DNA of 57,359 nt, taken from Hoyosella rhizosphaerae (GTDB lineage: Bacteria > Actinomycetota > Actinomycetes > Mycobacteriales > Mycobacteriaceae). The stretch covers positions 1-57,359 of the forward strand of contig NZ_BMJH01000005.1 in assembly GCF_014643175.1 (NCBI RefSeq), in the 5' to 3' direction. Every line of letters starts with the position of its first letter. The first letter of the stretch is position 1. Shown here in pieces: positions 3,106 through 57,359 of the stretch. A program made the position numbers and the translations under genes. The notes under the pieces are model-generated. The model was not told where the DNA came from, searched no databases, and saw only the letters and a list, made by a program, of their open reading frames with translations.

Positions 3106-4166
3106 GAGGGCTCGCAGCTCCACTAATCAAGCTTGCGCTGTTCGCGATAATTACTATCTCGGCAGTGGCAGTGCTAGCAGTCGCTATTGCGAACTACATC
3201 CCTACTTCGGGCCACACCTACAAGGCGCGATTCACAGACGTGACGTCTCTTGAAAAAGGCGACGAAATACGTATCGCTGGTGTGCGAATCGGAAAAGTTA
3301 CCGACATCAAACTCGCTGACCGAGACCAAGCTGAAGTCGAATTCCAGATTCGAGACGGTCTCGAACTACCGAGTGACGTCAACGCCGCGATACGGTATCG
3401 CCACCTAGCAGGTCAGCGCTACGTTCTGCTGAGCAGGGGATCGGGCACCGAAGCTGGCAATCTAGAGCCAGGTTCAACAATTCCGCTCGACCGCACTACC
3501 CCCGCAGTGAACTTGACAGTGATGTTCAACGGTTTCCGTCCGCTGTTCCAAACTCTGCAGCCTGAAGATGTGAACCGGCTAGCCGACCAGATTATTCAAA
3601 TCTTCCAGGGCGAATCGGCGACGATCACGCAACTGGTGGCGAACGTCGGAACACTCACCAACGCCATCGCAGACAAGGATGAGGTAATCGGTGAGGTCGT
3701 CAACAACCTGAACTCAGTGCTTGAGAGGGTAAATGAGCACGACGACGATATTCGGGAAATGGTTTCGTCACTCGACATTCTCGTTAGTGGCCTAGCCGAT
3801 GACCGCGACACCGTCGGAAGTGCTGTTCAGTCACTCTCCGTTCTGACGCAAGAATTGACTGAACTGCTCGAACCAACAAGGCCGTCGATTCAAGGAACCA
3901 TCAGCGGTGTGGAACAGCTGGCTGGCAACCTCAATGCGAACAGTGCCACAGTCGAACGAACGATTCAGAACCTTCCAGTCAAGCTTGAACGAATCGGTAA
4001 GACAGCGTCACTCGGTTCTTGGTTCTCGATGTACCTATGCGGACTGGACATCATTGTCGGACCGGGAACACCAACCGGAGTTAACCTCCCGGGCGGAATC
4101 CCAACAGTGAACCAGCCCCTGTACACCAACGCTGCGGATCGCTGCCAACCAGGGGGTATCCAGTGA
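3102..4166 (+). CDS. mceB: MceB: MCE/MlaD-domain protein
   Basis: Second Mce subunit, 354 residues. One N-terminal membrane helix (about 7-30), an MCE domain (about 38-118, with KGDEIRIAGVRIGKV and AGQRYVLLSRG), a helical needle segment to about residue 290, and a short C-terminal domain containing two Cys (MYLCGLDII and AADRCQPGG) that may form a disulfide. The ATG overlaps the mceA stop (ATGA) and its own TGA overlaps the GTG of mceC. In the family it is one of six paralogues forming a lipid conduit across the periplasm-equivalent space. Confidence 0.92.
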   Translation: MRGLAAPLIKLALFAIITISAVAVLAVAIANYIPTSGHTYKARFTDVTSLEKGDEIRIAGVRIGKVTDIKLADRDQAEVEFQIRDGLELPSDVNAAIRYRHLAGQRYVLLSRGSGTEAGNLEPGSTIPLDRTTPAVNLTVMFNGFRPLFQTLQPEDVNRLADQIIQIFQGESATITQLVANVGTLTNAIADKDEVIGEVVNNLNSVLERVNEHDDDIREMVSSLDILVSGLADDRDTVGSAVQSLSVLTQELTELLEPTRPSIQGTISGVEQLAGNLNANSATVERTIQNLPVKLERIGKTASLGSWFSMYLCGLDIIVGPGTPTGVNLPGGIPTVNQPLYTNAADRCQPGGIQ

Positions 4167-35002: not shown

Positions 35003-35138
35003 TTCACCAACTGCCGACCACAGGTAGTATCTCCGGGAAGCTTCCTAGGGGCCGCTTCTCTAAGGCTCGGCAAGACCAAAACATGAACACCCGTACTGCT
35101 GCAAACTGCAAGCACTAATTAGTCCAGGAGGACATAAA

Positions 35139-36332
35139 GTGGCGAAGGCGAAGTTCGAGCGGAACAAGCCGCACGTCAACATCGGCACCATCGGACACGT
35201 TGACCACGGCAAGACCACGCTCACCGCAGCAATCACCAAGGTTCTGCACGATACCTACCCAGCTCTCAACAAGAGCTTTGCGTTCGACGAGATCGACAAA
35301 GCTCCTGAAGAGAAGCAGCGCGGTATCACCATCAACATCTCGCACGTCGAGTACCAGACGGAAAAGCGTCACTACGCTCACGTCGACGCACCCGGCCACG
35401 CCGACTACATCAAGAACATGATTACCGGCGCAGCGCAGATGGATGGTGCAATCCTCGTGGTTGCCGCAACCGACGGCCCGATGCCTCAGACGCGTGAGCA
35501 CGTCCTGCTCGCACGTCAGGTTGGCGTCCCTTACATCCTTGTTGCCCTGAACAAGAGCGACATGGTTGACGACGAGGAAATCCTCGAACTCGTCGAGATG
35601 GAGGTGCGTGAGCTCCTCTCCTCGCAGGAATTCGACGGTGACAACGCTCCAGTCGTTCAGGTGTCGGCACTTAAGGCACTCGAAGGCGACCCAGAGTGGG
35701 CGAAGAAGATCGTCGAACTCATGGATGCTGTCGACGAGTCCATCCCTGAGCCAGAGCGTGAGACCGAAAAGCCGTTCCTCATGCCAGTTGAGGACGTTTT
35801 CACCATCACCGGTCGTGGCACCGTTGTTACCGGTCGTATCGAGCGTGGCAAGGTCAACGTGAACGAGGAAGTCGAGATCGTCGGCATCCGCGAAAAGTCC
35901 ACCAAGACCACCGTTACCGGTATCGAAATGTTCCGCAAGCTTCTTGACTACGGCGAGGCTGGCGACAACGTCGGTCTGCTTCTCCGCGGTATCAAGCGCG
36001 AAGATGTTGAGCGTGGACAGGTTGTTGTCAAGCCAGGTTCGACAACACCACACACCGAGTTCGAAGGCCAGGCGTACATCCTGTCCAAGGACGAAGGCGG
36101 ACGTCACACCCCGTTCTTCAACAACTACCGTCCTCAGTTCTACTTCCGCACCACCGACGTTACCGGTGTGGTTACTCTTCCTGAGGGCACCGAGATGGTC
36201 ATGCCAGGTGACAACACCGACATGCTCGTCAAGCTAATCCAGCCTGTCGCCATGGATGAGGGCCTCCGCTTCGCGATCCGCGAAGGTGGCCGCACCGTGG
36301 GTGCAGGTCGCGTTACCAAGATCATCAAGTGA
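35139..36332 (+). CDS. tuf: Elongation factor Tu
   Basis: GTPase that delivers aminoacyl-tRNA, 397 residues. GTG start with AGGAGG upstream. [17 protein letters not shown] and NKSD GTPase motifs; C-terminal domains complete to GRVTKIIK. Last gene of the str operon. The 136-bp gap after fusA could hold a separate promoter, as is common for tuf. A long antisense frame over it is a codon-bias shadow. Confidence 0.98.
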
Positions 36333-36894: not shown

Positions 36895-39800
36895 GTGAGC
36901 CACACTGATGTACCTGAGTTTGATTACCACGATTCTCAGGGAGACGGTCGTCGCTCTTTTCCACTCTCCGCCGCTCAATACAGCATGTGGATGTCTCATC
37001 AACTTTCGCCCGAAACCCCCATTGCGATTGCGCAGTTTGTTGAGGTTTTCGGCGACGTCCAGCGTGACCAGCTATCTGCAGCGATATTGCAAGCTGGGCG
37101 AGAATTGGGCTCAGGGTATCTGCGCATCATCGATACTGAATCCGGTGAACCGCGGCAATTAGTCGACCCCACGCTCGAACAGAGACTTGAATTCCTCGAC
37201 GTCTCGTCAGAGGCGGACCCAGAAGCGGCAGCGCGCGAGTGGATGCGGTCTGAATATTCGACGCCAATTGATATCACCGCCGGGGCGTTGGGTCGCTCGG
37301 TGCTGCTGAAGCTCGCTGATCAGCACTATTTCTGGTACATGCGTCTGCACCATATTGCGATTGACGGATTCGGCGGGATGAATCTCATCAGCCGTATCGC
37401 GGAAGTCTATTCAGCGCTTGTCGTCGGGCGGGAACCGTCGCCTATGCCGACGGAATCGCTTCGCGCTATCTATGATTCCGAGGTCAAGTACCGGAATTCC
37501 AGTCGGTTTGAGCGTGACCGTGAGTTCTGGGTTGACTACGCGCACGATATGCCTAACAAGGTGACGTTGGCGTTGCGCTCAGCGCCAGCAGCTCCACGGA
37601 GTCTTGTCCTGTCGGAGGACGTCGACCCCAGTACTGATGCAGGGTTGGAGGAGTCTGCGGCGCAGTACAACGGGTCGTGGGCGCCGGTAACGATCGCCGC
37701 GCTTGGCGCGTATCTCGCGAGGGTGAGCGGATCTGACGAGGTTGTTCTGAGCCTGCCTGTGTCGTCTCGTGTCACAAAAACTATGCGTTCATCGGGCGGA
37801 ATGGTATCCAATGTGGTTCCGCTGCGAGTTGTGGTGCGGCCCGACCAAACTCCGCAGGAATTGTCGGAATACGTACAGAAGCAGTTGTTTTCGGCGTTGC
37901 GGCATCAGCGTTATCGGTATGAAGACTTGCGTCGCGACTTAGGTACGTTGTCGGCTGATCGTGAGTTCTTTGGACCCACTGTGAACATCATGATGTTCCA
38001 GCCGGAGGTTCGCCTGGGAGACGTTGTTGGCAAGCTCAGTGTTTTGAGCACGGGTCCCGTCGAGGACCTTTCAGTGAACCTGTACCCGGCTACGGGGCAG
38101 GAGCGCATCCATATCGATTTTGAGGCAAACCCTAATAGGTACACCGAGAGTGAACTGGCACGGCATCACAAACGCTTCTTGCGTTACCTGAAGAACTTTG
38201 TCGCAGCTGCCGATGGCGTCGTGGTTCAAGACCTCACGTTGATGGATGATGAAGAATCAGCGGCGGTACTGGCCTGGTCTAGGGGACCTCGCGAGGATTC
38301 TTCGGAAGATTCTCCGACCATCGCTGTGAGGGCGGTTCTGAAGGCCTCACAGGCGGATATGTCGTCAGCGCTCGCGGTGGTTGCGGGTGATCGGCATGTG
38401 ACATATGGCGACTTCAGTCGGGCCGTGGACGCGCTTGCGGCGCAGTTGCATCGCCGCGGTGTGGGCCCAGATGATGTTGTCGCGCTTGCGTTGCCCCGGT
38501 CGGTGGAGTGGGTGGTGGCGATGGCCGCGGCCTGGCAGGTGGGTGCGGGCTATGCCCCGGTGGACCCGACATTCCCCACCGACAGGCTGAATGCCGTACT
38601 GACTGATACTGAGGCAGCCGCAGTGGTGTGCCTAGCAGGGTGGGAGCACGAGTCGTTTGTTGCGGACGGTCAGCGGGTTGTGTGCGACGTGGACGTTCTT
38701 GCTGCATCAGGTGACTGCTACCGTCCGGCGACCGATCCCTGGTCTGCACCGGGTGCGGGTTTGCGAACTGCGTACATCATTTCCACCTCCGGTTCGACCG
38801 GGCGGCCTAAGCCGACGGTAGTTCCGATGGCTGGTGTAGCGAACACCGTGAACTGGTATCGAGGCGAATTGGCGATCGGCGAGGGCCGAGGTGTTCTGAT
38901 CGCGTCATCGCCTGGTTTCGACCTCACACAGAAGAACGTCTGGGCGGCGCTGGCAAGTGGCGCGACGATTGTGCTCGCGCAGGATGGGTTTGACCCCGCC
39001 GACATTTTGCCAGCTGTCGAAACGTACGACGTCGCGGTCGCCAATATGTCGCCGTCTGCTTTCGAAGCGCTCGTCGATGCTGACACTGGCCACGTGCTGG
39101 AAAGACTGGAAACGGTTTTTCTGGGTGGCGAAGCTATCCGCCCACGCCCGCTGAGCGGTCTGCTTGGCGCTGGTGTTTCGTTGGTCAACAGTTATGGCCC
39201 TACCGAAGCGTCGGACGTGGTGTCTTACGCGCGGATGACAGACGCGGACACGGTGTCTGTGCCTATTGGGCATCCGGTGCCGAACATTGATTTGTTAGTT
39301 CTCGATCGCAGACTGCAGCCTGTTCCCGTTGGTGTTGCCGGGGAACTGTATGTAGCCGGTGTGGGCGTTGGCCGCGGTTATGGCGGACAGATGGCGCTTA
39401 CGGCCGGTCGGTTTGTGGCCAACCCGCAGGGAACTTCTGGCGAGCGGATGTACCGCACTGGTGACCTTGTGCGGTGGCGGGCAGATGGAGAACTGGAGTA
39501 CATCGGCCGTACCGACTTCCAAGTCAAGCTTCGTGGCTTCCGCATCGAGTTGGGCGAGATTGAACTAGCACTGCTCAGTCACGACAGCGTCGCCCAGGCG
39601 ACGGCTGTGGTTTTGCGGGGTGAAGGCACCCCAGACAGGCTTGTCGGCTATGTCGTCGCGGCTGAAGGCACAGTTGTCGATGACGGCGATGTGCTCCGTC
39701 ACGTGGCAGAGTTTCTGCCCGGCTACATGGTTCCGTCTGTGCTGGTTGTCTTAGATAGCCTCCCGCTAACCGCGAGCGGAAAAATTGACCGGAAAGCCCT

Positions 39801-42800
39801 TCCGGAACCAAATTTCGGGGCGATGGTGTCGTCCTCGCGTGACCCGAAGAACGAAACTGAACGCATCCTTGCGGAGATTTTCGCGAGCGCATTGGGGCTC
39901 CCGGAAATCGGACTTGATGACTCATTCTTCGCACTTGGTGGCGACAGCATCATGTCCATCCACGTTGTGTCTCGCGCTAAAGCCGCGGGCATCCTCATCA
40001 CGCCTCGGGATGTGTTTGAGCGGCGAACCGTTGCTGCACTTGCACAGGTAGCGAAGTCGATTGACGCAACCACGGATGTGGTTGTTCTTAACGAACTTGA
40101 GGGCGGCGGCGTAGGTTCGGTGCCGCTCACTCCAGTGATGTCGTGGATGGTGGAGCGCGGCGGGGACTTCGGTCAGTATTCGCAAGCCGCGCTGCTGACG
40201 TTGCCCGTTGGCATCACCGCAGACGGTCTCGCTGCAACCTTGCAAGCTGTTGTCGACCACCATGATCTGCTGCGCGCATGCGTCAGTAGGAGTGGCTTGG
40301 AAGTACTGCCCGCGGGGAGTATCGCGGCAAACGAAGTCGTCACCAGGGTTCGCCCAAACGCAGCCCCTGGTACCGCTGAGTTTGCTTCGGCTGTGTCGGA
40401 GTCACTCACTGCATCGGCTGAACGACTCGACCCATCAACGGGTCGCATGTTGCAAGCGGTGTGGTTCGACCTAGGCCCCGATACCGCCGGTCGCGTCTTG
40501 CTTGTGATTCACCATGTCGCTGTTGATGGTGTGTCGTGGCGCGTATTGGTACCGGACCTCATTGCAGCGTGGGCACAAATTCGCGACGGCGGGCTACCAG
40601 AATTGCCGCCGGTGGGGACATCTTTCCGACGCTGGGCCCACGGTCTGAAGGAAATGGCGGAGTCGCGAGCCGACGAGTTTACGCTGTGGGAAGACATGAT
40701 CCAGGGCGATGAACCTATCCTCGGATCGCGGGCACTAGACCCCGTGGTTGATGTCAACCGCACCTTGAAGCGCGCCACGTTCGAGATCACGCCGAATGCT
40801 ACTGAAACACTGTTGACCACTGTTCCTGAGGTCTTGCGCGGCGGAGTGGACGACGGTTTGATTGCGTCGCTCGTCCTCGCCCTTGCACGGTGGAAGGGCG
40901 CAACGACTCCTCTTATCGGCTTGGAAGGGCACGGCCGAGAAGAAGCTGCTGTACCGGGCGCCGATGTGAGCCGCACGTTGGGTTGGTTCACCACGATCGC
41001 ACCTGTGCGGTTCGATGCAAGCTATGTCGATATTGCTGATGCTTTTTCCGGTGGCGAGGATGCGGGTGTCGTCCTTAAGTCGGTGAAGGAGCAGCTGCGA
41101 TCGGTTCCAGATCGCGGTGTTGGTTTCGGCATGCTGCGGTATTTGCATTCCGACGGTGCCGCACGCCTGGGGGCAGCCAACCCGCAGGTGATGTTCAACT
41201 ATCTGGGCAGGTTTGTCACGGGTGAAGTTCCTGAGGGTCTACGTGAGCTTGGTTGGATGCCAGCCGACGACTCCGATGAAATGATGTTCACCTTCGCCCC
41301 AGACATGGCCGCACCCGGGGCTTTGGACATTACGGCGATGATTTCTCCTTCCGATGCCGGTCAGGTTCTGCAGGTCGTTGTCCTGTATCCGTCGGGTCTC
41401 TTCGCCGATGCTGAGATTTCCGAGTTCACCGAGCACTGGAAGGCTGCTCTGGGCGCGGTCTGCGATTACGCGCAGTCGCCGGTTGCCGGGGGCCTTACAC
41501 CATCCGATGTGGGCCTGGTCGACATAGACCAAGACACGATCGCGGCTTTGGAGCAGCAGTTCCCGTCGCTGGCTGATATTTGGCCTCTATCACCGTTGCA
41601 GGCGGGGATGCTGTTTCACGCAGTGCTAGCTGAGGACAGCGTGGACGCTTATATGGTCCAACTTGTCCTGCATGTTCGCGGTGCCGTGGATGTGGAGCGT
41701 CTTTCGCGCGCCGTCCGGGGCGTCGTTGCGCGGCACCCGAACCTGCGCGCAGCGTTCACGGCAACGGCGGATGGCGACCCGCTTCAGGTTGTTGCTGGTG
41801 CCGTAGATGTTGGCGTCGAATACCTCGACCTCACGAACACAAATGATCCAGATTCGGGGCTGGCCGAGTTCTTGGAGGCAGACCGGTCGCAGCGGTTTGA
41901 CATGACTGCGGCACCTTTGGTGCGCGTAACTGTGTTGGAACTGCGAGAGGGCGACTATCGGGTTGTTCTCACGAACCATCACATTTTGATGGATGGGTGG
42001 TCCACACCGCTCTACCTGCGCGACCTCATTGCGTTGTATGTTTCCGATGGAGATACGGCTTCGCTTCCGTCTGCACGGTCGTACAAGGATTACCTTGAGT
42101 GGGTTCAGCAGCAAGACGTGGATGTGTCTTTGCGAACGTGGCGGGATGCTCTTTCTGGCCTCGACGAGCCGACCACGCTTATTCCGCTGGAACGGGCGCG
42201 CAAGCACGACTCACCTTCGCGTGAAGTAGTGCACGAGTTCAGCGCTGAACTGAGTTCGCGCATCACTCATGTTGCACGAGATCTAGGTGTCACGGTGAAC
42301 ACCGTTGTTCAGGTTGCGTGGGGAATCGTCCTATCCACGGAAACGGCACGCACTGACTTAGTGTTTGGTGCCACGGTATCGGGGCGCCCGCCGCAACTTG
42401 ACGGCGTCGAAGAGATGATCGGCCTGTTCATCAATACTCTGCCGGTGCGGTTGCGGCTTGATCCGCGAGAAACTTTCACGGAGTTGCTGACGCGCGTCCA
42501 AGGCGAACAAGCTGACCTTCTCGAACACCACTATGTGCAACTTGCTGAGATCCAGGACGTGGCTGGCAACGGGGCCCTGTTCGACACATTGACGGTGTTT
42601 GAGTCGTACCCGGTGGATCGTGCTGGACTCGGTGAGGACGTCGACCTTGCTGGTATGCGAGTCGTTGACATCGAGGGGTTGGACGCGGCGCACTACCCGG
42701 TCACCGTCATCACGCACGCTGAACCTGCGTTGAAGATCATTTTGAAGTACTTCCCGGACTTGCTTGCAGCGGAGCGTATGACGTCGTTGCTGCAGCGCAT

Positions 42801-45800
42801 GGTGCGCACCTTGGTCAGCATCGCAGACAAGCCGGATACAACATTCGGTGAGTTCGACGTCTTGACTGAGGGGGAGCGCAGCCAACTTGCTCCGGTTAAC
42901 GGTCCTGCTGGACAAACGCCGCGTCCGCTACCGGATATTTTCGCTGAGACGGCTGCGAACGCCGCTGACAACATCGCGATTATTGATCGCGACCGAACGC
43001 TGACTTACGCCGAACTTGATGCGCGTTCGTCGCAAGTTGCCCGCTACCTCATTGCCAGAGGTGTGCGTACCGAACAGTTCGTGGCACTTGGCCTGCCACG
43101 CTCGCAAGAATCCTTGCTCAGCGTGTGGGCGGTTGTGAAGTCCGGTGGAGCTTTTGTTCCGGTGGACCCAAGCTACCCAGCAGACCGTATTGAACACATG
43201 CTCGACGATTCGGGTGCCGCTGTCGGATTGACCCTTATGGCTCAGCGTGACGGGTTGCCTGACACCACTGAATGGATCGTTCTTGACGACCCCGATGTGC
43301 AATCAGCAATCAGTGAATTTTCTTCTGCGCCAGTAACCGATCACGATCGTCGTGCACAGATTCGCGTCGCCAACACTGCGTACATGATCTACACATCGGG
43401 CTCCACAGGTGTGCCCAAGGGTGTGGTGGTGACGCACCGCGGCATGGCCAACTTCGCTGCCGAACAACGTGAGCGGTACTCCGTCACGCAAGACTCACGC
43501 GTGTTGCACTTTTCGTCCCCGAGCTTTGACGCATCGGTCCTCGAATATCTTCTGGCATTCGGGACCGGAGCGACGATGGTGGTGGTTCCACCAGGCACCT
43601 TTGGTGGCGAGGAACTCGCAGATATCATCCGCGAAAATGCTGCGACTCACGCGTTTATTACGCCGTCAGCGCTCGCGTCGGTAGACCCTGCCGGGCTCGA
43701 TGTTTTTCAGCATGTCGTGGCTGGCGGTGAGGCCGTTCCCGCGGACCTCGTTGCACGTTGGGCGCCGGGTCGTCGCATGTACAACGGGTATGGCCCGACC
43801 GAAACCACCATCATGGTGATGATTTCGGACCCCATGGCGCCGGACCAGCCGGTAGTCACCATTGGTCCACCCATTCGTGGGACACGCGGTGTGGTTTTGG
43901 ATTCCATGCTGCGCCCTGTCCCTGTTGGGGTGCCAGGCGAACTGTTTGTAGCAGGCTTTGGTGAGGCCCGCGGATATCACGACCGCCCGGGTCTGACGGC
44001 GGAGCGATTCGTCGCTGACCCATTTGGGGCGCCGGGCGATCGGATGTACCGCACTGGTGACCTGGTGCGGTGGACCCTTGCCGGACCGTCCGGAGAACTC
44101 GAGATTGAGTACCTTGGTCGTACCGACTTCCAGGTCAAGGTGCGCGGTTTCCGTATCGAACTTGGTGAGATCGATGCGGTGCTTGGCGCACACCCAGATG
44201 TGGACTTCGCAGTTACCTTGGGACATACCGGGGAAACTGACATCACTCGTCTTGTTGCCTACGTAAAGCCGGTGGCAGGGGCGACGCCCGAGCAGGCTGA
44301 GCTGACGGAGTTTGTTGGGCAGTCACTGCCTTCACACATGGTTCCCTCAGCCATCGTTGTGCTTGATGAGATTCCATTGACGGTCAACGGCAAGCTTGAT
44401 CGTGCACGGCTACCGGAACCTGTTTTCACGTCCCAAGACGACATCTACGTCGCGCCTGCGACTCCTGCAGAGGTTGCCGTCGCCGATGTATTTGCTAGCG
44501 TTCTGGGGCTTGAACGTGTGGGAGTGCGTGATAGCTTCTTTGACCTCGGTGGAAACTCGCTGTCGGCAACGAAGGTGATCACGCGGGTCAACAAGGCTCT
44601 CGGATGTCAGCTTGGGGTTCGGGAACTATTCGAAGCTCCCACTGTTGCTGAACTTGCTGTGCGGGCAATGGCGAGCAGCGCTGACCACACTGGTCGCGTC
44701 GCGCTGGTGGCGAAAGAGCGCCCGGCGCGTATTCCGTTGTCCCTAGCCCAGCAGGGCATGTGGTTCATCAACCAATACGACCCCACATCGCCGGTGTACA
44801 ACATCGCATTTGGGGTAGCGCTCAGTGGCGAACTCGATGTTGATGCGATGCGGGCAGCGATGGGCGACATTCTGGAACGCCACGAGGCATTGCGCACACT
44901 GTTCCCCGCCGATATGGAGGGGACACACCAGTTGATCCTCCCCATGCGCGAAGTCGACATTGCGTTGGATGTCGAGGATGTCCCAATCTTGGAACAGGAT
45001 CAGGACGCCGACAACCACCCCGCCGAGAAATCAGCGGTGGAGTTCGTGTCCCGCGGGTTCGATGTGCAACATGACCTGCCGATTCGCGCGCGGTTGTTCC
45101 GCACCGCTCAGGACCGGCACTTCCTCGCTATTGTGGTGCATCACATCGTCGCCGATGGTGCATCTATGGCGCCGCTTGCGGCAGATCTGATGTATGCGTA
45201 TTCGCGTCGCATGGTTGGTGCGGCACCTGAATGGGAGCCGCTACCGATTCAGTACGCCGACTTTGCTTTGTGGCAACGAGAAGTGCTGGGTGACGATACT
45301 GACCCCACTAGTGCGGTATCGCAGCAATTGGCATTCTGGACGCACACGTTGCGTGGCGCACCGCCGTTGTTGCCCCTGCCGACGGACCATCCTCGTCCGG
45401 CGACACAGTCACTTAACGGCGAAACTGTTGTTTTTCACATCAACGCCGAGATCCACAAAAAACTTGACCAGCTTGCGCGCCAACACAATGCAACGGTGTT
45501 TATGGTGACGCACGCCGCGCTGGCGACTTTGCTTGCCAGGTTGTCTGGAACGAGCGACATTGCGATCGGTACACCGGTTGCTGGACGTGGCGATGAAGCC
45601 GTGGACAGGCTCGCTGGGATGTTCGTCAATACCCTAGTTTTGCGGGCCCAGGTTGAGTCCGATGCCACATTCTCGGACCTGCTTCGACAGGTGTGGTCTC
45701 AAGATATTGCGGCATTTAACAATGCTGATGTTCCGTTCGAACGTGTGGTGCGGGAACTTGGGATTGAGCGGACGAGTGACCATTCACCGCTGTTCCAGGT

Positions 45801-48800
45801 GATGTTGGCGTTCCAAAACACGGACCCGGTGCGGTTCGCGTTAAGTGGGCTTGAGGTCGTTGCGGACGGCCTTGACGTTAATACGGCCAAGTTTGATCTC
45901 ATGCTCACCTTGGAGGAAACCCACACCGACAGCGGTGAGCACACCGGGATCAAAGCACAGTTCACCTACGCAACTGACTTGTTCGAGCGGCGCACCATCG
46001 CACAATATGCCGAGCGGTACACGAGAGTGCTGGAGTCAGTCGTTGCTGACCACAATGTCGTTGTTGGCGATATCAGCCTGCTTAGCGATCGAGAGCAGAA
46101 CCTATTTACCTCAAAGCCAGGGCCAGCAGGTCGATTGCAGCAACGCGTCGAATCCGCGATTCTGGACGACCCCAACGGGTCCGCTTTTGTCGTAGATGGT
46201 GCCGAGATCAGTTACCAGGAGGTCCAGGACAGAGCACGTGTCGTTGCTGAGCGCATTGGTGCCGCACGCATCCACGATGACGGCCATTACGCGTTGGCGC
46301 TGTTGACGTATGCCACAGGAGCCCTGGATGACGAAACTGCTGTCGGCCTCATAGACAGGCTTGTTCCTGTCCTGGATGCGGTTGCTGGTGACACCTCGCT
46401 TGCTCTGGGTGCGCTGGGGCAAAACTTTGCGTTGGGCGACACCGGAAAAGCTGGTTGGAATGACACAGCACATTCATGCCCCGACACGACGTTGGTGGAG
46501 TTGTTTGCGCAGCAGGTGGCAAGGACGCCAGATGCGATTGCTCTGAAGTACCGAAACCGGTCACTTACCTACGCTGAACTTGACGAATGGTCGAACCGGC
46601 TTGCCCGGCACCTCATTGGTCTGGGTGTAGGCCCGGAGTCGCGCGTGGCGTTGGTCATGCGGCGGTCACTTGAGATGGTCGTCGGAATGTACGCCATCGT
46701 TAAGGCCGGTGGCGCTTACGTGCCAGTCGACCCCGATCACCCTGCGGACCGCATCGAATGGGTACTGACGTCGTCAGACCCTGTGTGCGTGGTAACGACT
46801 ACACGGGACCGGGTGCCGTCAGCAGCCGGGATCACCGCTCTTGAGCTCGATAAACTAGACGTCAGTGGGCACGACGCTGGCGAGTTGATGGATACGGAAC
46901 TTGTCGGCCCAATTTTGCCGGACAACATCGCTTACATCATCTACACCTCAGGCTCAACCGGCCGACCCAAGGGTGTTGCAGTGTCGCACCGGGCCATCGT
47001 CAACCGGTTGCTGTGGATGCAGGACGAGTACCAACTGACCCCTGCGGACGTTGTCCTGCAGAAGACTCCGTTCACCTTCGATGTGTCGGTGTGGGAGTTT
47101 TTCTGGCCTCTACAAATCGGTTCGAAGCTTGTCATCGCACTTCCTGACGGGCACCGAGATCCGGCGTATTTGGCGGAACTTATTGCTCGGGAACGTGTGT
47201 CGGTGCTCCACTTTGTGCCATCGATGCTTGCAGTGTTTGTGGCAGCTGCTGCCGAAAGTGGTTGGCGAGATTCCATCTCCACACTGCGGCTTGTGTTCGC
47301 TAGTGGTGAGGCGCTTGCGCCCAATACCGCGGCGAGCCTCGCGGCTTTGTCCGACACAGAACTGCACAACTTGTACGGTCCGACGGAGGCCGCGGTCGAC
47401 GTCACCTACCACCAGTACACCGCTGATGACACTGTCACCGTGCCGATTGGTGCGCCCGTGTGGAATACACAGGTGTACGTTCTCGACAACCGACTTTCAC
47501 CAGTTCCTATCGGCGTGCACGGCGAGCTTTACCTCGCTGGTATTCAACTTGCCCGTGGGTACGTCGGACGCCCAGATCTCAGCGCTGACCGGTTTGTGGC
47601 TAACCCCTACGGTGAGCCAGGGGAACGCATGTACCGCACCGGTGACCTTGTCCGCTGGCGCAAGAACGGCGAGATCGAATACATCGGCCGTACCGACTTC
47701 CAGGTGAAGCTGCGCGGTCTGCGTATCGAGCTCGGCGAGATCGAAGCCGTGCTTCAAACGGCGGACAATGTTGACCAGTCCGTAGTCGTACTGCACCACG
47801 ACGCGGCTGCCGGAGATCAACTCGTCGGCTATGTCACCGCGCAGGCAGGTACCAGCGTCTCAGTAGAGGGCATCAAGAAGTACGCCGCCGGGAAATTACC
47901 TGAGTATATGGTGCCGCGCGTGATCATGGCTCTCGACGAATTCCCCTTGAACATCAACGGCAAGTTGGACAGAAAAGCACTGCCGACGCCAGAACTCGGT
48001 ACAGCAGTGGGAGCGTACATCGCCCCATCCGGCCCAGTTGAAGAAATCATTGCGGGAATCTTCGCGGAAGTAACGTCCCGCGAACACGTTGGCGCTACTA
48101 CCTCGTTCTTTGATCTCGGTGGTAACTCGTTGAGCGCAACCCTTGTCACTACGCGTATCAACGATGCGTTCGGTGCCGAACTGACGCTGCGGGATCTATT
48201 TGAATCGCCCACCGTTGCGGGGCTTGCTGCAATGGTCGAGCATGAGAGTGCCCGTACGGTAAACCGCCCCAAACTGGTTCGACAAAGCCGGGACGGCGAC
48301 ATCCCGTTGTCACTTGCGCAGCAACGTATGTGGTTCCTCAACCGCTACGATTCCGCATCTGCGGTGTACAACATGCCACTCGTTCTCAAGCTCACGGGCA
48401 AGCTGTACGTGGCAGCGTTGCAAGAAGCACTCCACGATGTTGTGGGCCGCCACGAATCGTTGCGCACGGTGTTCCCGACACGCAACGGCGAACCTGTGCA
48501 GGTGGTCTTGCCTGCTAACAAGGTGGATCTCGATGTTTCACCCGTCGACGTGGCGGGGGAGGAAGCACTTCACCGGGAGCTGTTCGCGCTTGCATCGGTG
48601 GGCTTTGATGTCACAGCCGAGCCACCGATCCGTGCTGCCTTGCTTCGCACGGCCCCAGACGAGCACACGCTGCTCGTGGTGGTTCATCACATCGCGGCGG
48701 ACGGTGCGTCACTGAATCCGCTGGCCAGCGACCTTGTGGCTGCGTATATGTCGAGGGCCGCCGGTGATACCCCGCAGTGGGAACCGTTGTCTGTGCAGTA

Positions 48801-51800
48801 CGCGGACTTTGCTATCTGGCAGCGCCAATTGCTCGGCGACGACACTGACCCTGAGTCGCTCGCAGGGCGCCAAATCGCTTTCTGGCGGGACACTCTCGCT
48901 GGGGTTCCTGACTTGTTGGAACTTCCGACGGATCGCCCGCGACCAGCTTCCCAATCGCAACGCGGCGCGACGTTTGGTTTCGCAATACCGGCTGACCTTC
49001 AGTCCGGTTTGCAACAGCTTGCGCGCGACAACCGAACGACCATCTTCATGGTGGTGCATGCAGCTTTCGCCACATTCCTGGCCAGGATTGCGCGCGCGGA
49101 CGATGTCACCATAGGCACGCCGGTAGCCGGTCGTGGTGAGCGTGCACTCGACCCGCTCGTCGGAATGTTCGTCAACACCCTTGTGTTGCGGACCCCCATC
49201 GATCCAGAGCAGTCTTTCGAAACCTTGCTCGCCGATGTGCGGGACAGGGACCTCGCGGCATTCACACACGCCGATGTGCCCTTTGAGCAACTCGTTGATG
49301 CACTGAAGCCCACACGGTCGAGCGCGCACGCCCCGCTCTTCCAAGTGGTGCTTGCGTTCCAAAACACTGACCCCATCGCGTTCGACCTGGACGGTGTCGC
49401 AGCCGAATTCCACACAGTAGACGTGCACACAACCAAATTTGACCTGATGCTCGATCTTGCTGAGCAATGGGACGACGACGGTGCGCCAAGCGGTATGCGT
49501 GGACACTTTGTCTATGCCACCGATCTTTTTGACGAGGCGACGATTTCGGGCTTCGCCGACAGGTTTGTTCATCTCCTTGGACAAGTACTTGCCGCTCCGC
49601 AAAGCCCCGTCGGCGATATCGACCTCGTCAGTGGTGCCGAACACGCCGCTATCGTCCCGGTTCGTGGCGGTGACGCACCTCCAACGCTGACGCTGCCCGA
49701 GATTTTCGCCCGTGCGGCAGCAAAGAACCCGACGGCAACCGCGATCGTCGTCGGCGATACCGAACTGACCTACGGAGAACTCGATGCACGCTCCAACGCG
49801 TTCGCCCGAGTTCTGCTCGGCCACGGGGTTACCGCGGGCTCAGTCGTCGCGTTGGCCATGCCGCGTTCCGCCGAACTTGTCACCGCGATATGGGCAGTAG
49901 CGAAAGCCGGTGCAGCGTATGTTCCGGTCGATCCCTCCTACCCAGAAGACCGCATCATCCACATGGTCACTGACTCGGACGCCATCATCGGTGTGGCACT
50001 TGAGTCAGCACAGGAGGCTCTGCCCGACTCCATCGACTGGATTGCTATCGACGGCGCTCCGATTGCGGGAGAACTAGCCGCAGCATCAACGGCGCCCATA
50101 ACTGAAATTCAACCCGTCGCGCCAACATCTGCGGCATACATGATCTACACCTCGGGCTCCACCGGACTTCCGAAGGGTGTCGTCGTCACGCACTCTGGGC
50201 TGTCATCAGTTGTCGCCGAACAAATCGACGCATTCGGGCTCACCACACAATCCCGAGTTCTACAGGTTGCGTCACCAAGTTTCGACGCATCAGTGTTCGA
50301 ACTGCTCATGGCATTCGGCGTCGGAGCCACCCTGGTCGTCGTACCAGGTGGAGGGCGCGACGCAGCAGGCGCCGTAGGACAAGTACTGCGCGAACAGCAT
50401 GTCACCCACACCGTCATCACACCCTCCGTGCTCGCCTCCATCGAACCCGAAGCGATGAACAGCATCGAAACGCTCCTCGTGGCCGGTGAAGCGTGCCCGC
50501 CTGAGCTCGTAGCGCAGTGGGCACCGGGGCGCCGCATGCTCAACCTTTATGGGCCCACCGAAGCCACAATCTGGTCCACCGTCAGCGCGCCGATGGAGCC
50601 TGGCAACCCCGTGGACATTGGTCGCCCCATCGTCGGCACCAACATCCTCGTGCTCGATGACCGGCTACGCCCAGTACCCGTCGGCGTTGCTGGCGAAATG
50701 TACATCGCTGGTGTCGGCCTCGCCCGTGGCTACCACAACCGCCACGGCATGACCGCGTCCCGTTTCGTGGCCAACCCATACACCGACGGCGAGCTCATGT
50801 ACCGCTCCGGCGACCTCGTACGGTGGAAACACGACCACACCCTCGAATACCTCGGACGTACCGACTTCCAGGTAAAGCTCCGGGGCCTCCGAATCGAACT
50901 CGGCGAAATCGAAGCTGCCCTCACCCAGCACAGCACCGTTGCACAGGCCGTGGTCGACGTATTCCATGACGCACATGTAGGAGATGTCCTAGTCGCCTAC
51001 GCAGTTGCGTCCACGCCAGAAACGCAACTCGATATCGATGCGCTCCGCGACCACGTTGGCCAAGCGCTACCGCCCTACATGGTTCCGCAAACCATCATCC
51101 AACTCGATGCGATACCGGTCACCGTCAACGGCAAGACAGACCGCAAGGCATTACCCGCGCCGGACCTCGCGCTGCTACAAAAAGAGTTCCGCGCCCCGGC
51201 CACACCGATGGAAGAAATCATCGCCGGAATCTTCGGTGAAATCACCGGACGGGAACGCGTCGGCGCGGACGACAACTTCTTCGACATCGGCGGAAACTCA
51301 CTATCCGCCACCCGTGTTGTAGCACGCACCAGCGAAGCAACAGGCCGCGAAATTGGTGTCCGAGAACTATTCGACGCACCCACCGTCACTGACTTCGCTG
51401 CCGCCGTCGAATCAGCCACAACCGGCACCAACCGGCCCGAACTAGTACCGGCCCCAGAGGGTTCCACGCCACCGCTGTCGATGGCGCAGAACCGCATGCT
51501 CATCATCAACCAACTCGACCCAGCATCACCCGCCTACAACATCCCGCTCATGCTGCGGCTAACCGGCACACTCGACGTCGATGCCATGTCCGAAGCGATT
51601 CGTGACGTCATCACCCGACACGAAGTGCTGCGGACGGTCTACTCCATTGTTGATGAGACCCCGACACCTCATGTGCTGCCAGTACGCGATGTTGCTACCA
51701 TCCTTGCGCTAGCTGAGGTCAACTCGGAAGACGAATTGATCGCACGGGCTTCCGCGTTGGCAACAACAGGTTTTGATGTCACCCGTCAGGCGCCGGTCCG

Positions 51801-54800
51801 CGCTGGGCTATTCCGCATGGATGACGACGAGTATGTGCTGGTAATGGTCGTCCACCACATTGCAGCTGATGGTGAGTCGCTAGCCCCACTGGCCCGCGAC
51901 GTCATGGTTGCTTACACGGCACGAGCTAACGGGCATGAACCAGGCTGGGAGCCGCTGTCGGTACAGTACTCGGACTTCGCCGCATGGCAGCATGAAGTTC
52001 TGGGCTCTGAAGAAGACCCTGAAGCATTGATCAGTCAGCAAATTCGGTACTGGTCCGATGCGTTGGAAGAATTGCCTGAACTCATCGAACTTCCGACTGA
52101 CCGGCCCCGCCCAGCGGTGATGTCTCAGCGCGGAGCGCAATACGATTTCGAGTTCGATTCGGCACTGCAGACTCAGCTAAGTGAGTTTGCGCGGCAGCAC
52201 AATGCAACACCATTCATGGTGGTCCACGCGACACTGGCAATATTGCTGGCCAAGTTGTCGGGAACTTCCGACGTCCCCATCGGAACCCCGGTGGCAGGGC
52301 GAGGTCATCGCACACTCGATGACCTCGTGGGGATGTTCGTCAACACCCTTGTGTTGCGTACGCAGGTGGATCCACATCTCACACTGACGGAGTTCCTCAA
52401 CGACGTCCGGAAGAGGGACATCGCAGCCTTTACGCACACCGATGTGCCGTTCGAACGTCTCGTCGACATGATCGACCCTGTTCGATCGCGCGCGCATGCA
52501 CCGCTATTCCAGGTTCTACTGACGTTCCAGAATGCGAGTGCGCCACACTTCGAACTTCCCGGCCTCACCGTTAAACCGGTGGAAATTGACACTCACACCG
52601 TCAAGTTCGACCTCGATGTTGCCGTGATACAGCAGTGGCAAGATGGCACCGAACCCGCCGGGATACGGGTCGTATTCACCTATGCGACAGACCTATTCGA
52701 TGAGTCAACGATTGCGACCTTCGGGCAACGTTTCTCGCAGCTCCTGACGGGAATATTAAGCAACCCCGACATCCCTGTGCGTGAGCTCGCATGGCTGAGC
52801 GACGATGAGCAACGGTGGCTTACAAGTATTGGGACTGGTGCACGACGGCCATCCGGCGAGTTGTCGCCACTCCAACAATTTGAGGCCGCGAAGTCGTCGA
52901 ACCTCAGTGCGGTGGCTATTCACGACTCTGCCGGTTCCATGACGTACCGCGACCTTGACGAAGCGTCCACAGCAGTGGCTTCGCAACTGGTGGAACTCGG
53001 TGTGAAGCCTGACGATGTTGTGGCATTGATGCTGCCCCGAAGCGTGCACTGGGTAGTCGGCATGCTCGCCGTGTGGAAGTCGGGCGCGGCATACGCCCCG
53101 GTAGACCCTAAGTTCCCAGCAGACCGGATCGAAGCTGTTCTGGAAGACACCCAGGCGGTTGCGGTAATCGCAGATACGCCGGGGCACTGGGAGACGCTGT
53201 TGCCACCGCGCAGCGTGCTGCGGATTGACCACATGATCGAAAACGTGGCAGAACCGTCTACGGCGCTGCCGGACCGTTGGCAAGAACGTGGCGCCGGCGC
53301 ACGTATCGGCTACGTCATTTCAACCTCAGGATCAACCGGTCGCCCCAAGCCAACACTTGTGCCGATGGCCGGAATCTCCAACACTCTTGAGTGGTACCGC
53401 GACGCCACCAACCTAAATCCAGGTGACGGCGTGCTTGTCGCTTCCTCGCCGGGATTTGACCTAACGCAAAAGAATGTTTGGACGGCGCTGTTCTCCGGTG
53501 CGACGCTAGTTCTCGCCGACGATCCTTTCGATCCGATGAGCATCATTGAATCGGTGCGTCAACACTCAGTGGTGTTAAGCAATATGTCGCCAAGCGCGTT
53601 CGAAGCGCTGGTGGAGACCGATACCGAAGGCGTATTGACCGCTACCAAGATGGTGTTCCTAGGTGGGGAAGCGATTAGGCGTAAACCCATCGCGAATCTA
53701 CTCACCGCCGGTGTGCGGATCTTCAACAGTTACGGCCCCACCGAAGCATCTGACGTGGTGTCATGGGCCGAAGTCACCCCAGATGGTGACGGCTCGGTGC
53801 CCATTGGTGCTGCGATTCCGAACATCACACTGTATGTCCTCGATGCTGACCTCAAACCAGTTCCCACAGGCGTGAGTGGCGAACTGTATGTATCCGGCAT
53901 AGGTGTAGGACGAGGCTATGGCAATCTCACTGGACTCACCGCGAGTAGATTCGTAGCAAATCCCTACGGGGAATCCGGCGAACGAATGTACCGCACTGGT
54001 GACCTCGCACGATGGCGCGAAGACGGCCAACTCGACTACCTCGGACGCACTGATTTCCAGGTTAAACTTCGCGGCTTCCGCATCGAGCTCGGCGAAATCG
54101 AATCGGTGCTCACCGCGCTCCCGGACGTGAGCAAAGCCCATGTGCAAGTCCACCACGACAAGCGCGCAGGTGACCAACTTGTTGCGTATCTTGTGGCGGT
54201 TCAGGATCAGCAACCAGACGTGGAGCAGATCCGTGCACACATGTCTGCGGTTCTGCCTCCGTACATGCTTCCCTCAGCGTATGAGGTCCTCACAGAGTTC
54301 CCACTCACCCCGAGTGGGAAGCTCGACCGGCGCAAACTCCCTACGCCACAGTTCGGGGCGCCAACCGACGAGTACGTTGCCCCAACAAACCCAGTGGAAG
54401 AAACAATCGCAGAGATCTATGCGACGGTTCTTGGCTACCCCCAGGTGTCCATCGAAGCACCATTCTTTGATCTCGGTGGTAACTCGCTCGGAGCGATGAA
54501 AGCAGTGGCGCGAATAAGTACCGCGCTCGGCGTTAAAGTGCGACTGCAGGATCTCTTCGAAGCACCCACCGTCGCCGAACTCGCGCACCGGGTGGAACAT
54601 GCACAGACACTCGGGGCGGGGCGGCCTCCGCTAGCTCCGGCGGACCCACGCCCAGAGCACATCCCACTGTCCTTAGCGCAGCAGCGCATGTGGCTCATCA
54701 ACCGATTCGAACCGGACTCGGCGGCATACAACATGCCGCTCATTGTCCGCCTGTCGGGGAAGTTGAACGCGCAAGCGCTCGCCATGGCTGTGCATGATGT

Positions 54801-57111
54801 TCTCGATAGGCACGAGTCACTGCGCACTAAGTTCCCGGATTCTGCCAACGGGCCTCGGCAACAGATCGTGCCTACACGTGACATCAATGTCGACATGCAG
54901 GTGCAAACGGTTACTGAAGCTAACATCGTGGAACGCATCACTTCGCTGGTGACAGCAGGGTTTGATGTCACAGCGCAGGTGCCGCTACGTAGCGCGCTCT
55001 ATCAGCTCACCCCCGATGAGCACGTCCTGGCCATTGTGGTGCACCACATCATCGGCGACGGAGAATCGATGACGCCGATGGCCAGGGACGTCATGCTGGC
55101 CTACGCAGCACGATCAGCTGGTGAAGCACCGGCGTGGGACCCACTAGAAATTCAGTACGCCGACTTCGCTATTTGGCAGCGCGAGGCACTCGGCGACATT
55201 AACGACCCCAACTCGGTTGCTAGTGAGCAGCTCGACTATTGGAAGAAGACACTGGCTGGATTGCCAGACCTACTCGACCTGCCGACAGATCGACCGAGGC
55301 CCGCGTATGCAGGGATGGAAGCCGGTGTGGCGTCATTCGCGATCAGCGAAGAATCGCACAGCGCGCTAATGAAGCTTGGCAGCGAACAAGGCTCATCACT
55401 TTTCATGGTGCTGCACGCCATATTCGCCGCCACGCTGTCCCGCATCACCGGAACCACAGATATCCCCATAGGTTCCCCGGTGGCAGGTCGCGGCGAGGAA
55501 CAGGTTGATGACCTGATCGGCATGTTCGTCAATACCCTCGTACTGCGCACTGACGTCCAACCGGATGACACTTTCAGCGCGTTCCTCAACCAGGTACGCC
55601 GGGTCGACCTCGAAGCGTTCGAACACGCCGACATTCCGTTTGAGCAACTCGTCGAAGCACTGTCACCACGACGCACCACGGCGCACGCCCCACTGACACA
55701 AGTGGTGATCAGTCTGCAAAACCCACAGCAAGGAAAGCTGGAACTGCCAGGACTGACCATTGCGCCGTTCGAAGGCGCAGTGGAATCCGCCAAATTCGAT
55801 GTGCTACTCACGCTGGAACAGAAGTTCTCCGACGAGCAGGTCCCGGCAGGAATTACCGCATCCCTGGTATACCGCACAGACATTTTCGACGAATCCACAA
55901 TGCTGCGCCTGGGGCGCCGTTTCAGTCGAGTCATCGACGCCGTCACGGACAACCCGGACATCATCATCGGTGACATCGACATCGTTGATGAGCAGGAAGC
56001 TAGCTCCATCGTGCAAGGCGGGTCAAAGCCGACTAGCGCAGCCTCGGGTGACACCGCAATTATGGATGGACTACCCGCGGTGACGCCGGAAACTTTGGCG
56101 CAAATCTTGGCTCGCGGCGCCGAATCCAACCCCACCGGTACCGCCATCGTGGGAGCGGAAAAGAACGTCAACTTCATGAACCTCGACAAGAGGTCCTCCA
56201 GGTTGGCGCGTCTCCTCATCGCTCACGGTGCAGCGCCGGAAACAAGTGTCGCGATTGCGTTGCCGGTATCAACAGAGATGGTTGTGGCGATCTGGGCCGT
56301 CGCCAAGACAGGTGCGGCAATTGAACTGCTCAGCGTCGATTCACCAACGCCCACCAGCGCACCGGTAGCTGTAGTCACGCAGGGTGCCATCGCTGTAAAT
56401 GCGGAGGACGGCACAGTAATTGCGCTAGACGACGAAAGCACCAAGGCGCAACTGAAAACAAAGCCGCCCACCCCCATCTCGTTCTATGACCGACTCGGAA
56501 CGCTCCGCACGACCAACACTGCCTACTTCACAACCAGCAGTCAGGGCGCAAGCGGGATCGCACACACAGGTATCGCCAGTGTGGTGGCAGACCTGCAATC
56601 GAGGCTGGGCGTTAACGCCGACGCGCGGGTGGCGCTTCCGGAGGATCAGCACCCAAGTATGACAATCCTCGCTGTGACACTGGCCGCTCATAGTGGTGCC
56701 CCAGTGGTCGTCAGCGAACACCAAGGTGACAGCGACATCCACCTCCGGCGGGTGGCGCTCGACGCTGGCGTAAACGGAAGTGGCGACAGGAAGACGGGAC
56801 TCTTCGCCCCTGATGGAGCACTTCCCGCCGCTTACTTCACCGCCAGCGATAAGGGACTCCAACTAGAGCCACTGCGCGGGATGCAACTAGCGGTACTCAA
56901 CACCCACCTTGCCCCCGTCGGCGACGGAGAAACAGGAGAGATCTACCTCGGTGGAACTGGGCACGCCCGCGAATACTTGAACGATCCTCGTCGCACGGCA
57001 ACCCACATTATTCCGGCGCCGGATGGTGAAGACGTTCGACGAATTGTCCGAACCGGAGTGCTGGCGAAATGGAACAGCGACGGGACTATGGAGTTCGCCG
57101 TTGGGACGTAA
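36895..57111 (+). CDS. Giant non-ribosomal peptide synthetase, five full modules plus C and a dead A domain
   Basis: 6738 residues in one frame from a GTG start. Domain order: C1-A1-T1-E1, C2-A2-T2, C3-A3-T3, C4-A4-T4, C5-A5-T5, C6-A*(dead). Each live A domain has the A3 loop, YGPTE, TGDL and the A10 Lys. Each T has LGG(D/N)S with Ser at 1018, 2555, 3745, 4802 and 5864. Each C and the E have HHxxxDG. The only epimerase follows T1, whose LGGDSI is the form typical before E domains. No thioesterase is present, so the chain must pass to a downstream protein. The peptide is inferred as acyl-D-X1-X2-Ser-X4-X1-X6. Product unknown; siderophore or lipopeptide are both open. Confidence 0.97.
36950..41500 (+). 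other. NRPS module 1: EntF-like C, A (DLKNFGSDVK), T, E
   Basis: C1 (about residues 19-455) has HHIAIDG at 152-158 and [12 protein letters not shown] with YFWYMRLHH. These look more like EntF-type C domains than the internal C domains here, so the donor is probably an aryl or fatty acyl group. A1 (about 479-972) yields the ten-residue code DLKNFGSDVK by alignment to GrsA; its A3 loop reads [11 protein letters not shown], with Pro for the usual Gly. T1 Ser1018. E1 (about 1062-1535) has HHVAVDG at 1206-1212 and the E-type FNYLGRF. Substrate not assigned; D-configured. Confidence 0.8.
41575..44665 (+). other. NRPS module 2: C, A (DALFVGGIMK), T
   Basis: C2 (about 1560-1995), right after the E domain, has [10 protein letters not shown] and HHILMDG at 1695-1701; as the acceptor of an epimerised residue it should be a D-L type C domain. 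A2 (about 2005-2505) has FDASVLEYL and [10 protein letters not shown], giving the code DALFVGGIMK. The pocket is hydrophobic and nearest, among codes I remember, to valine-type DA-x-x-x-GG. T2 Ser2555. Substrate only tentatively a small aliphatic residue. Confidence 0.75.
44710..48240 (+). other. NRPS module 3: C, vestigial A fragment, A (Ser), T
   Basis: C3 (about 2605-3065) has HHIVADG at 2749-2755. Between it and A3 lies an extra stretch of about 120 residues (46111-46480) whose start resembles an A-domain N-terminus ([18 protein letters not shown]) but has no later A motifs. A3 (about 3197-3695) gives DVWHFSLVDK, the canonical serine code, exactly. T3 Ser3745. Serine is the one assignment I trust. 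Confidence 0.88.
48280..51400 (+). other. NRPS module 4: C, A (DAFVLALIWK), T
   Basis: C4 (about 3795-4250) has HHIAADG at 3931-3937. A4 (about 4262-4760) has FDASVFELL and [11 protein letters not shown], giving DAFVLALIWK, not a code I recognise. A2 and A4 share long identical stretches (FDASV, ITPS-LAS, APGRRM), so they are close paralogues with different pockets. T4 Ser4802 in IGGNSLSA. Confidence 0.75.
51450..54610 (+). other. NRPS module 5: C, A (DLKNFGSDVK), T
   Basis: C5 (about 4852-5305) has HHIAADG at 4987-4993. A5 (about 5315-5815) repeats the module 1 code DLKNFGSDVK residue for residue, along with the [11 protein letters not shown] loop and the FDLTQKNVW and [11 protein letters not shown] segments. 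The same amino acid should therefore be loaded twice, here without an epimerase. T5 Ser5864. Confidence 0.8.
54630..55990 (+). other. NRPS terminal condensation domain (C6)
   Basis: Complete C domain (about residues 5912-6365) with [16 protein letters not shown] and HHIIGDG at 6050-6056. It can accept the pentapeptide from T5, but there is no acceptor carrier in this protein. The acceptor must come from another protein, most simply the A-first NRPS that starts at 57223. Confidence 0.85.
56071..57111 (+). other. Inactive adenylation-domain remnant at the NRPS C-terminus
   Basis: About 346 residues recognisably descended from an A domain: [40 protein letters not shown] and VRTGVLAKW. The P-loop-like A3 has become TTSSQGASG, the FDxSV pocket segment and YGPTE are gone, the A7 Asp is lost (RTGVL for RTGDL), and the protein stops where A8 would begin, so A10 Lys is missing. 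It cannot adenylate. A structural or docking role is possible. Confidence 0.85.
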
Positions 57112-57222
57112 CAGCTCAGGAGTCAGACCTGGAGACTAGCGATCTAAATTAGTTGTATGCGTATAGGATTACTGCGACATTAGCGCGCGTTAACCCTCAG
57201 CGTATACGGATGGTTTGGATTG

Positions 57223-57359
57223 ATGAACAGCGGCAATCAGGCACGAACACAACTTCTTCCGCAGTTGATGGCTTCCGCGTTTGAGGTGGATCCCACTGCT
57301 GTTGCGTTGGTTGAGGGTGACCGGAGTGTCTCGTATGTGAATCTGGATAAGCGCTCGTC
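57223..57359 (+). CDS. Second NRPS, N-terminus of an adenylation domain (partial)
   Basis: Opens at the ATG at 57223 and runs off the window. The first 45 residues contain LLPQLMASAFEVDPTAV and SVSYVNLDKRSS, the A1-region of an adenylation domain with no C domain before it. NLDKRSS is shared with the dead A remnant that ends the preceding protein, so the two are homologous. It most likely provides the A-T part of module 6. The 111-bp gap to the upstream gene has no clear terminator; a near-palindrome TTAGCGCGCGTTAA lies at about 57180. The RBS is weak. Confidence 0.75.
   Translation, partial: MNSGNQARTQLLPQLMASAFEVDPTAVALVEGDRSVSYVNLDKRS

Follow-up and report, generated by a model that had tools for sequence, protein, structure and literature searches.

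A degenerate adenylation domain ending a split non-ribosomal peptide synthetase: conservation across genera and a possible role in joining subunits

Why would a non-ribosomal peptide synthetase (NRPS) that is cut inside a module, between the condensation (C) and adenylation (A) domains, keep a dead A domain behind its last C domain when the next protein opens with an A domain of its own? The question is raised by contig NZ_BMJH01000005.1 of Hoyosella rhizosphaerae, which we analysed in its entirety (57359 bases; contig C5, referred to below as the window), and in which an earlier note had recognised a split module with an A-like remnant at the protein junction, possibly kept as an inter-subunit docking or gating element instead of decaying. 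Here, we describe this degenerate A-core domain, termed Adeg, and its counterparts in related genomes: it exists, lacks the catalytic motifs, is conserved and under selection, and stands where C and A are split, beside partner proteins that begin with an A domain (A-first proteins). The interpretation offered by the note is partly supported.

The first of the two proteins, protein 1, is an open reading frame (ORF) of 6738 amino acids (aa) on the forward strand (36895..57111), as are the domains, the second gene and tuf described below, with the domain order C-A-T-(C/E-like)-C-A-T-C-A-T-C-A-T-C-A-T-C-Adeg. The condensation domain of the split module, C6 (54622..55974, aa 5910-6360), is complete, scoring 649 bits over positions 1-448 of a profile built from the protein's own domains, and was also placed in trees. 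It is followed by a linker (55975..56076) and then by Adeg (56077..57108), which was characterised by profiles, alignments and selection analysis and which forms the C-terminus of protein 1 with some 344 in-frame residues up to the stop codon at 57109-57111; the note had counted about 340. On a local A profile made from the five intact A domains of protein 1, which themselves score 775-805 bits, the region behind C6 gives just fragmentary matches of 78 bits (profile 3-232) and 45 bits (326-402 of 500). The Pfam AMP-binding profile (PF00501) matches 14 of 14 members of the Adeg alignment tested, which indicates homology to the N-terminal part of the A core; the window copy reaches 68.2 bits, above the general cut-off of 29.9, its best stretch covering positions 3-83 of 384, and scores 98.6 bits on NCBIfam AA-adenyl-dom (TIGR01733), below the curated family cut-off of 317.4.

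The core motifs of A domains that matter here are A3, A4, A5, A7, A8 and A10, and among them A3, A4, A5 and A7 serve ATP and substrate binding. The note had listed A3, A5, the A7 Asp, A8 and A10 as missing, and alignment with intact A domains bears this out and extends it: the A3 loop is deleted, A4 and A5 are deleted or lost, A7 reads TGV in place of TGD and has thus lost its Asp, and protein 1 stops just ahead of A8, leaving nothing of the domain from there onward. Nearly every detail of that description holds, but a weak A6-like stretch, GEIYLGG, survives. Two further blocks stand out in the alignments, namely NLDKRSS (56179..56199) and a retained run of 10 residues (56464..56493) lying 5' of where the A3 loop has been lost. 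NLDKRSS is invariant in all six orthologous copies of Adeg and, as the note had seen for the window, recurs in the partner A domain, both in the window (where that domain is cut after the S) and in Lolliginicoccus levis, as well as in A6 of the fused relative G003 described below; the Hoyosella partner A domains have ALDKRSS instead. The second gene (57223..57359) opens with a 10-residue tail and proceeds at once to its A domain, without a C domain of its own; it is incomplete because the contig ends at base 57359, and the part present reads MNSGNQARTQLLPQLMASAFEVDPTAVALVEGDRSVSYVNLDKRS.

Relatives of the window retain the same split. A first contig scan using a single protein as query gave no match, and a search of four genomes of the genus found Adeg in G000, G001 (apparently L. 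lacisalsi) and G002 (apparently L. levis); an alignment of three Adeg sequences, run against 401 genomes of the family at E ≤ 1e-45, then added three genomes of a second genus (further codes are G067 and G026, apparently Hoyosella altamirensis and Hoyosella sp. YIM 151337, respectively). Adeg is hence found in six genomes of two genera, the window and five relatives, at the same place near tuf and ahead of an A-first gene, and in all six the reading frame is unbroken and ends at the same A8 boundary. The ORF that follows has the order A-T-C-A-T and onward in the four genomes whose contig continues, and in G001 and the window it begins as A-first and breaks off within the first A domain; an assembly artefact is ruled out, since in four relatives the contig continues across this split. 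In the orthologous module T6 sits on protein 2 and protein 1 ends within Adeg, unlike dead A domains complemented in trans, which share a protein with the T domain of their module, and the division of labour proposed in the note, with C6 given by protein 1 and A-T by protein 2, is what the orthologues display. The note had held that absence or frameshifting of the remnant in close relatives would speak against a docking role; no frameshift occurs in the six genomes, and the genome without Adeg, G003 of the same genus, has a single fused protein of 11,190 aa with a normal C6-A6-T6, a combination that fits rather than refutes the docking idea. As tuf lies directly upstream of the NRPS in seven of seven genomes, the G003 enzyme is at the same locus, and because its C6 falls inside the C6 clade, nearer Lolliginicoccus than Hoyosella (support 85-87 in C-domain trees), the fused form is more likely, with moderate support, to be a later fusion with loss of Adeg than the original state.

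A second, shorter type of the junction is more widely distributed. Among 78 loci, 11 from Nocardia records carry an NRPS protein whose last C domain is followed by a dead A domain of the shorter kind, and in each of them an A-first ORF comes next. An alignment of nine of these 11 copies of Adeg then known (L107 and L119 left out) matches 211 of the 401 family genomes at E ≤ 1e-35, a cut-off that intact A domains also pass, and for this reason 40 stretches around matches were fetched and checked individually; being hand-picked, they are no measure of frequency. They hold 39 same-strand junctions in 35 loci, 33 genomes and eight genera, which, together with 13 in the 78 loci, give 52 junction records with 51 distinct Adeg sequences. 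Two records are of the window's type (Lolliginicoccus, Hoyosella) and 50, with 49 distinct sequences, are of the short type, found in eight coded genera and in the named Nocardia records; the conservation beside A-first partners that the note had looked to as support is thus seen in two genera for the window's type and in eight further coded genera for the second. Four clusters (L196, L199, L201 and L202) have two such junctions in series, and in G078 and G028 the genes of the Adeg protein and the A-first protein are convergent, on opposite strands, yet the A-first tail is still basic. Left outside the junction set, of the 40, were L183 and L190 (A-first ORF on the opposite strand), L213 (A-first ORF alone), L216 (without Adeg) and L203 (Adeg at the stretch end, plus a split between C and A without it), and also, from the 78 loci, L070 (outside the automatic set, its Adeg score summing to more than 200 bits), whose Adeg and partner entered the trees as G067. 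G298 was rejected as a junction of this kind, its upstream NRPS ending in A-T with a TE-like tail. An order-wide search at E ≤ 1e-50 found Adeg in 10 of 397 genomes and two of 85 genera, all in one family, with a cut-off strict enough to miss diverged copies.

Across the 52 records, the distance from the end of the C domain to the stop falls within 286-343 aa in 50, the other two having 378 and 388 aa. Motifs A3, A4, A5, A7 and A8 are found in none of the 52 copies of Adeg as against 45-50 of the 52 partner A domains, and A10 is represented among them by one GKLD, so that by core motifs as by curated score Adeg falls short of a catalytic NRPS A domain. Searches of the PDB listed ordinary NRPSs and related enzymes, matched in their C and A domains.

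The dN/dS comparison suggested in the note reveals purifying selection on Adeg. This is clear for the short type, where, in four of the six pairs compared, it is somewhat weaker than on the neighbouring domains. Among the closer Nocardia pairs, of which there are five, the ratio (ω) is 0.159, 0.065, 0.125, 0.152 and 0.151 for Adeg, with values in the same order of 0.087, 0.036, 0.026, 0.189 and 0.161 for the C domain and 0.086, 0.051, 0.061, 0.150 and 0.192 for the partner A domain, and a more distant sixth pair gives 0.364, 0.275 and 0.223, respectively. For the window's type, the L. levis/L. lacisalsi comparison yields an ω of 0.30 for Adeg, as against 0.16 in C6 and 0.10-0.14 in those intact A domains that were included. 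In this pair the proportion of non-synonymous differences (pN) is low in the first part of Adeg and around the 56464..56493 block (0.043); in the Hoyosella pair it is low in the first part but not at that block (0.217).

The short type also carries a charge signature that extends to the partner protein. In 50 of 50 short-type junctions, the 25 residues ahead of the partner A domain have a charge of +5 to +11 (mean 7.5) and are mostly rich in Arg and Pro, and the accompanying Adeg is acidic, at -8.6 per 100 aa (range -11.8 to -5.6). As controls, 290 internal pre-A stretches average -2.4 with a maximum of +3, 29 tails of C-first proteins average +1.0 (range -6 to +7), and 144 intact A N-lobes stand at -4.6 per 100 aa. 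The position of Adeg is terminal, at a subunit junction, in all 52 records, and the matching basic partner tail is present in 50 of them and absent in the window's type. Outside the junction set, 25 A-first ORFs have tails of -4 to +11, and nine from Nocardia, mostly behind a TE-ended protein, have much the same MTRP-type tail. Five loci (L107, L109, L119, L133 and L146) have a third, A-first protein after a TE-ended protein 2, again with much the same Arg/Pro-rich tail; in such loci one Adeg might serve two alternative acceptors.

To view the junctions from the side of the partner, we examined the neighbouring NRPS ORFs in the 78 loci, where 28 second ORFs begin with an A-domain start, 14 of them following Adeg (the 13 and L070) and 10 following a T domain with a tail of 267-357 aa, which in those inspected we take to be TE-like from a GWSLG motif; the remaining four are overlapping or broken frames (two each in L096 and L121). 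L096, from Prescottella defluvii, has its NRPS in several overlapping frames, as from assembly frameshifts or gene decay. In the 40 chosen stretches the A-first ORF comes after Adeg in 39 cases, after T with a long tail in one and after C without Adeg in one. This last case, L203 (G075, C9:20001-40000, near 2400-3300), has an upstream protein whose last 110 or so aa, behind C, form a piece opening like an A domain and then continuing differently, and its downstream protein opens with a 43% identical piece (97 aa aligned) ahead of its A domain; the two are possibly a symmetrical docking pair of another kind. In L191 (G034, C257), protein 2 starts with a basic tail, next to which come a degenerate A domain, itself stopping at the A8 boundary, and then an intact A domain, so that a dead A domain is found on the partner side too.

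In a tree of 40 Adeg sequences (13 loci omitted as near-copies or odd), the 35 sampled short-type copies form one clade (support 97) and the five of the window's type another (100), with all 40 on one side of a branch whose support is 0. A further tree groups the window-type copies with the Lolliginicoccus/Hoyosella A-first domains and A6 of G003 (97; short type 94), from which the Adeg of the window may be a local duplicate of A6; a constraint holding all Adeg together was not rejected (approximately unbiased test, p 0.679). As to the C domains, 14 of the 15 sampled ahead of short-type Adeg form a clade (97) in a 60-row tree, apart from internal C domains and with C6 of the window outside, and C and Adeg accordingly seem to have been passed on together in the short type. 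An origin of the window's C6 shared with these C domains had support 98 in a 27-row tree, was gone with 60 rows and is not claimed.

What, then, might Adeg do? We lean towards an adaptor between subunits, derived from an A domain and maintained structurally, which would help to recruit protein 2. With C and A of the module placed on separate proteins, protein 1 would retain the dead domain behind C6, where the module's A domain would sit; there, Adeg would help to recruit the A6-T6 start of protein 2, and the amino acid bound to T6 would thereby reach the acceptor site of C6. At most of the junctions analysed the pairing would probably be electrostatic, between the acidic Adeg and the Arg/Pro-rich tail with which the partner begins; where that tail is short and nearly neutral, as in the window's type, contact would be made through Adeg and the body of A6, or by C6 itself. 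Physical binding, the contact surface and the help with acyl transfer are what we infer from these patterns. For the acidic short type the adaptor is well supported, if indirectly, and in the window's type, to which the charge argument does not apply, docking rests on conservation, position and the absence of Adeg from the fused form. Several observations weigh against an adaptor. Window-type tails carry 0 to +3 (three measured) and the corresponding Adeg -1.9 to -4.5 per 100 aa (six measured). Selection is weaker on window-type Adeg than on C6 (0.30 versus 0.16), and in three of the five closer Nocardia pairs ω for Adeg is 1.3 to 4.8 times that of the C or partner A domain. A basic tail is also seen where an A-first protein comes behind a TE or at the beginning of a line, and so is not exclusive to neighbours of Adeg, or else these proteins are alternative acceptors. 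The split in L203 has no Adeg of this kind, which is thus not universal for such splits in the family, and C6 of the window does not group with the short-type C domains under wider sampling, so that the two types may have separate origins.

One alternative is that Adeg is a structural cap and nothing else, covering the face of C6 that normally packs on A and keeping protein 1 folded and soluble, with protein 2 docking otherwise. The short, neutral partner tail of the window's type fits this, as do the fact that the best-retained portion is the N-terminal part of the A core, directly after the C-A linker, and the lack of Adeg where A6 is covalently present in G003, an absence that fits an adaptor equally. 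A cap does not, however, predict the basic partner tails and the extra acidity of the 50 short-type junctions, and the linkers ahead of Adeg (10-62 aa, median 22.5, 48 junctions) exceed normal C-A linkers (6-25 aa, median 16, n = 95) in length and vary more, which suits a tethered rather than a rigidly packed domain; we regard it as unlikely overall, and as a serious rival for the window's type. A regulatory or gating domain, binding for instance a small ligand, an MbtH protein or another protein in place of docking, might be expected from the retention of an A-derived domain at an inter-protein step, but the motifs for ATP and substrate binding are missing from all 52 copies and the partner-tail signature points to the partner protein, so that we give it little credence. 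Least probable, and disfavoured, is a decaying relic: after duplication of A6 and the appearance of a stop, the first copy would now be rotting. The grouping of window-type Adeg with A6 would agree with such a duplication, the second half of this Adeg is poorly conserved, and ω for this Adeg is roughly double the C6 value. When the L. levis Adeg was mutated neutrally in simulation (2000 runs), however, 8.9%, 1.9% and 0.3% of copies stayed stop-free at 0.3, 0.6 and 1.2 hits per site, whereas the frame is open, with the same end at the A8 boundary, in six of six orthologues; the short type, moreover, has ω well below 1 (0.065-0.364 in six pairs), and length is uniform across the 52 junctions. 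Returning to the adaptor, a wider and more tentative proposal is that a repertoire of A-derived docking parts joins the splits between C and A in this family: an acidic Adeg recognising an Arg/Pro-rich tail with selectivity specific to each line, used serially within one line and perhaps with two alternative downstream proteins; the longer, neutral Adeg of the window; and the small piece found on both partners in G075.

Other features of the window bear on its context. The NRPS is preceded by fusA-tuf (32885-36332), with tuf, encoding EF-Tu, at 35139..36332 as the upstream neighbour shared with the six other compared genomes. Two 9.6-kb contigs of the same genome, C8 and C9 (L217 and L218), have the same domain order and identical 83-base ends and are probably alternative middles of protein-2-like genes; a repeat of this kind may explain why contig C5 ends inside A6. 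Between C3 and A3 lies a 135-aa insert (46072-46473) that looks like the start of an A domain joined to the end of a C domain; G001, G002 and G067 have it too, as does G003 in diverged form (39%). The insert may be related to the paired piece in L203, although the match is weak (39 bits via the G003 insert and 16-20 bits for the window itself).

If the adaptor reading is right, these junctions would represent a class of NRPS docking in which a whole dead catalytic domain has been turned into a connector, between the C and A domains of one module, a position absent from the NRPS docking types listed in the docking section of PMC9113145. Product prediction in the family would then treat 'truncated A domains' and A-first proteins differently. 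G003 and its relatives already offer a natural experiment, in which one assembly line can be compared in its fused and its split form. In the open-licence literature, to which the search was confined with subscription papers outside its scope, we found no description of this junction or of an A-like NRPS docking domain. A line with a short-type junction has probably been surveyed before, as cluster #4 of Nocardia (for example O3I_004080 with O3I_004085), whose products are predicted in PMC4035055; we matched it by its six-residue prediction and gene order, not by accession, and in the relevant passages of that survey neither the dead A domain nor the tail comes up.

That section of PMC9113145 describes the NRPS docking domains COM at the junction of E and C (a helix-hand motif) and PAX at that of PCP and C (a three-helix bundle), and names beta-hairpin domains; like Adeg in the adaptor reading, these are terminal elements that link one subunit to the next at a junction. 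Adeg differs in spanning 286-388 aa from the end of C to the stop, far from a short helical element, in being derived from an A domain and in lying at a split inside a module. Docking within split modules is described in the same source for trans-AT polyketide synthases, for example between KS and KR, using pieces of about 25 residues that form four-helix bundles; these share with Adeg a place inside a module but are not dead catalytic domains. Dead A domains are known in turn from within the albicidin, ramoplanin and enduracidin lines, where another A or A-T serves the module (described in part of PMC8949500), and a truncated fungal A domain in SidD lacks its N-terminal 290 or so aa (from a passage in PMC10192304). 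There, as here, an A domain that does not catalyse remains and the amino acid is supplied from elsewhere, but Adeg lacks the C-terminal part and ends its protein, and the replacement A domain starts the next. The closest engineered counterpart is the type S NRPS, in which assembly lines are divided at the C-A linker and brought back together in trans by synthetic zippers (as outlined in PMC8362031); those zippers are artificial coiled coils, whereas the natural junction has a dead A domain, mostly with a basic partner tail, and would, if it docks as we suggest, provide natural parts for cutting assembly lines at the very linker where synthetic zippers have served.

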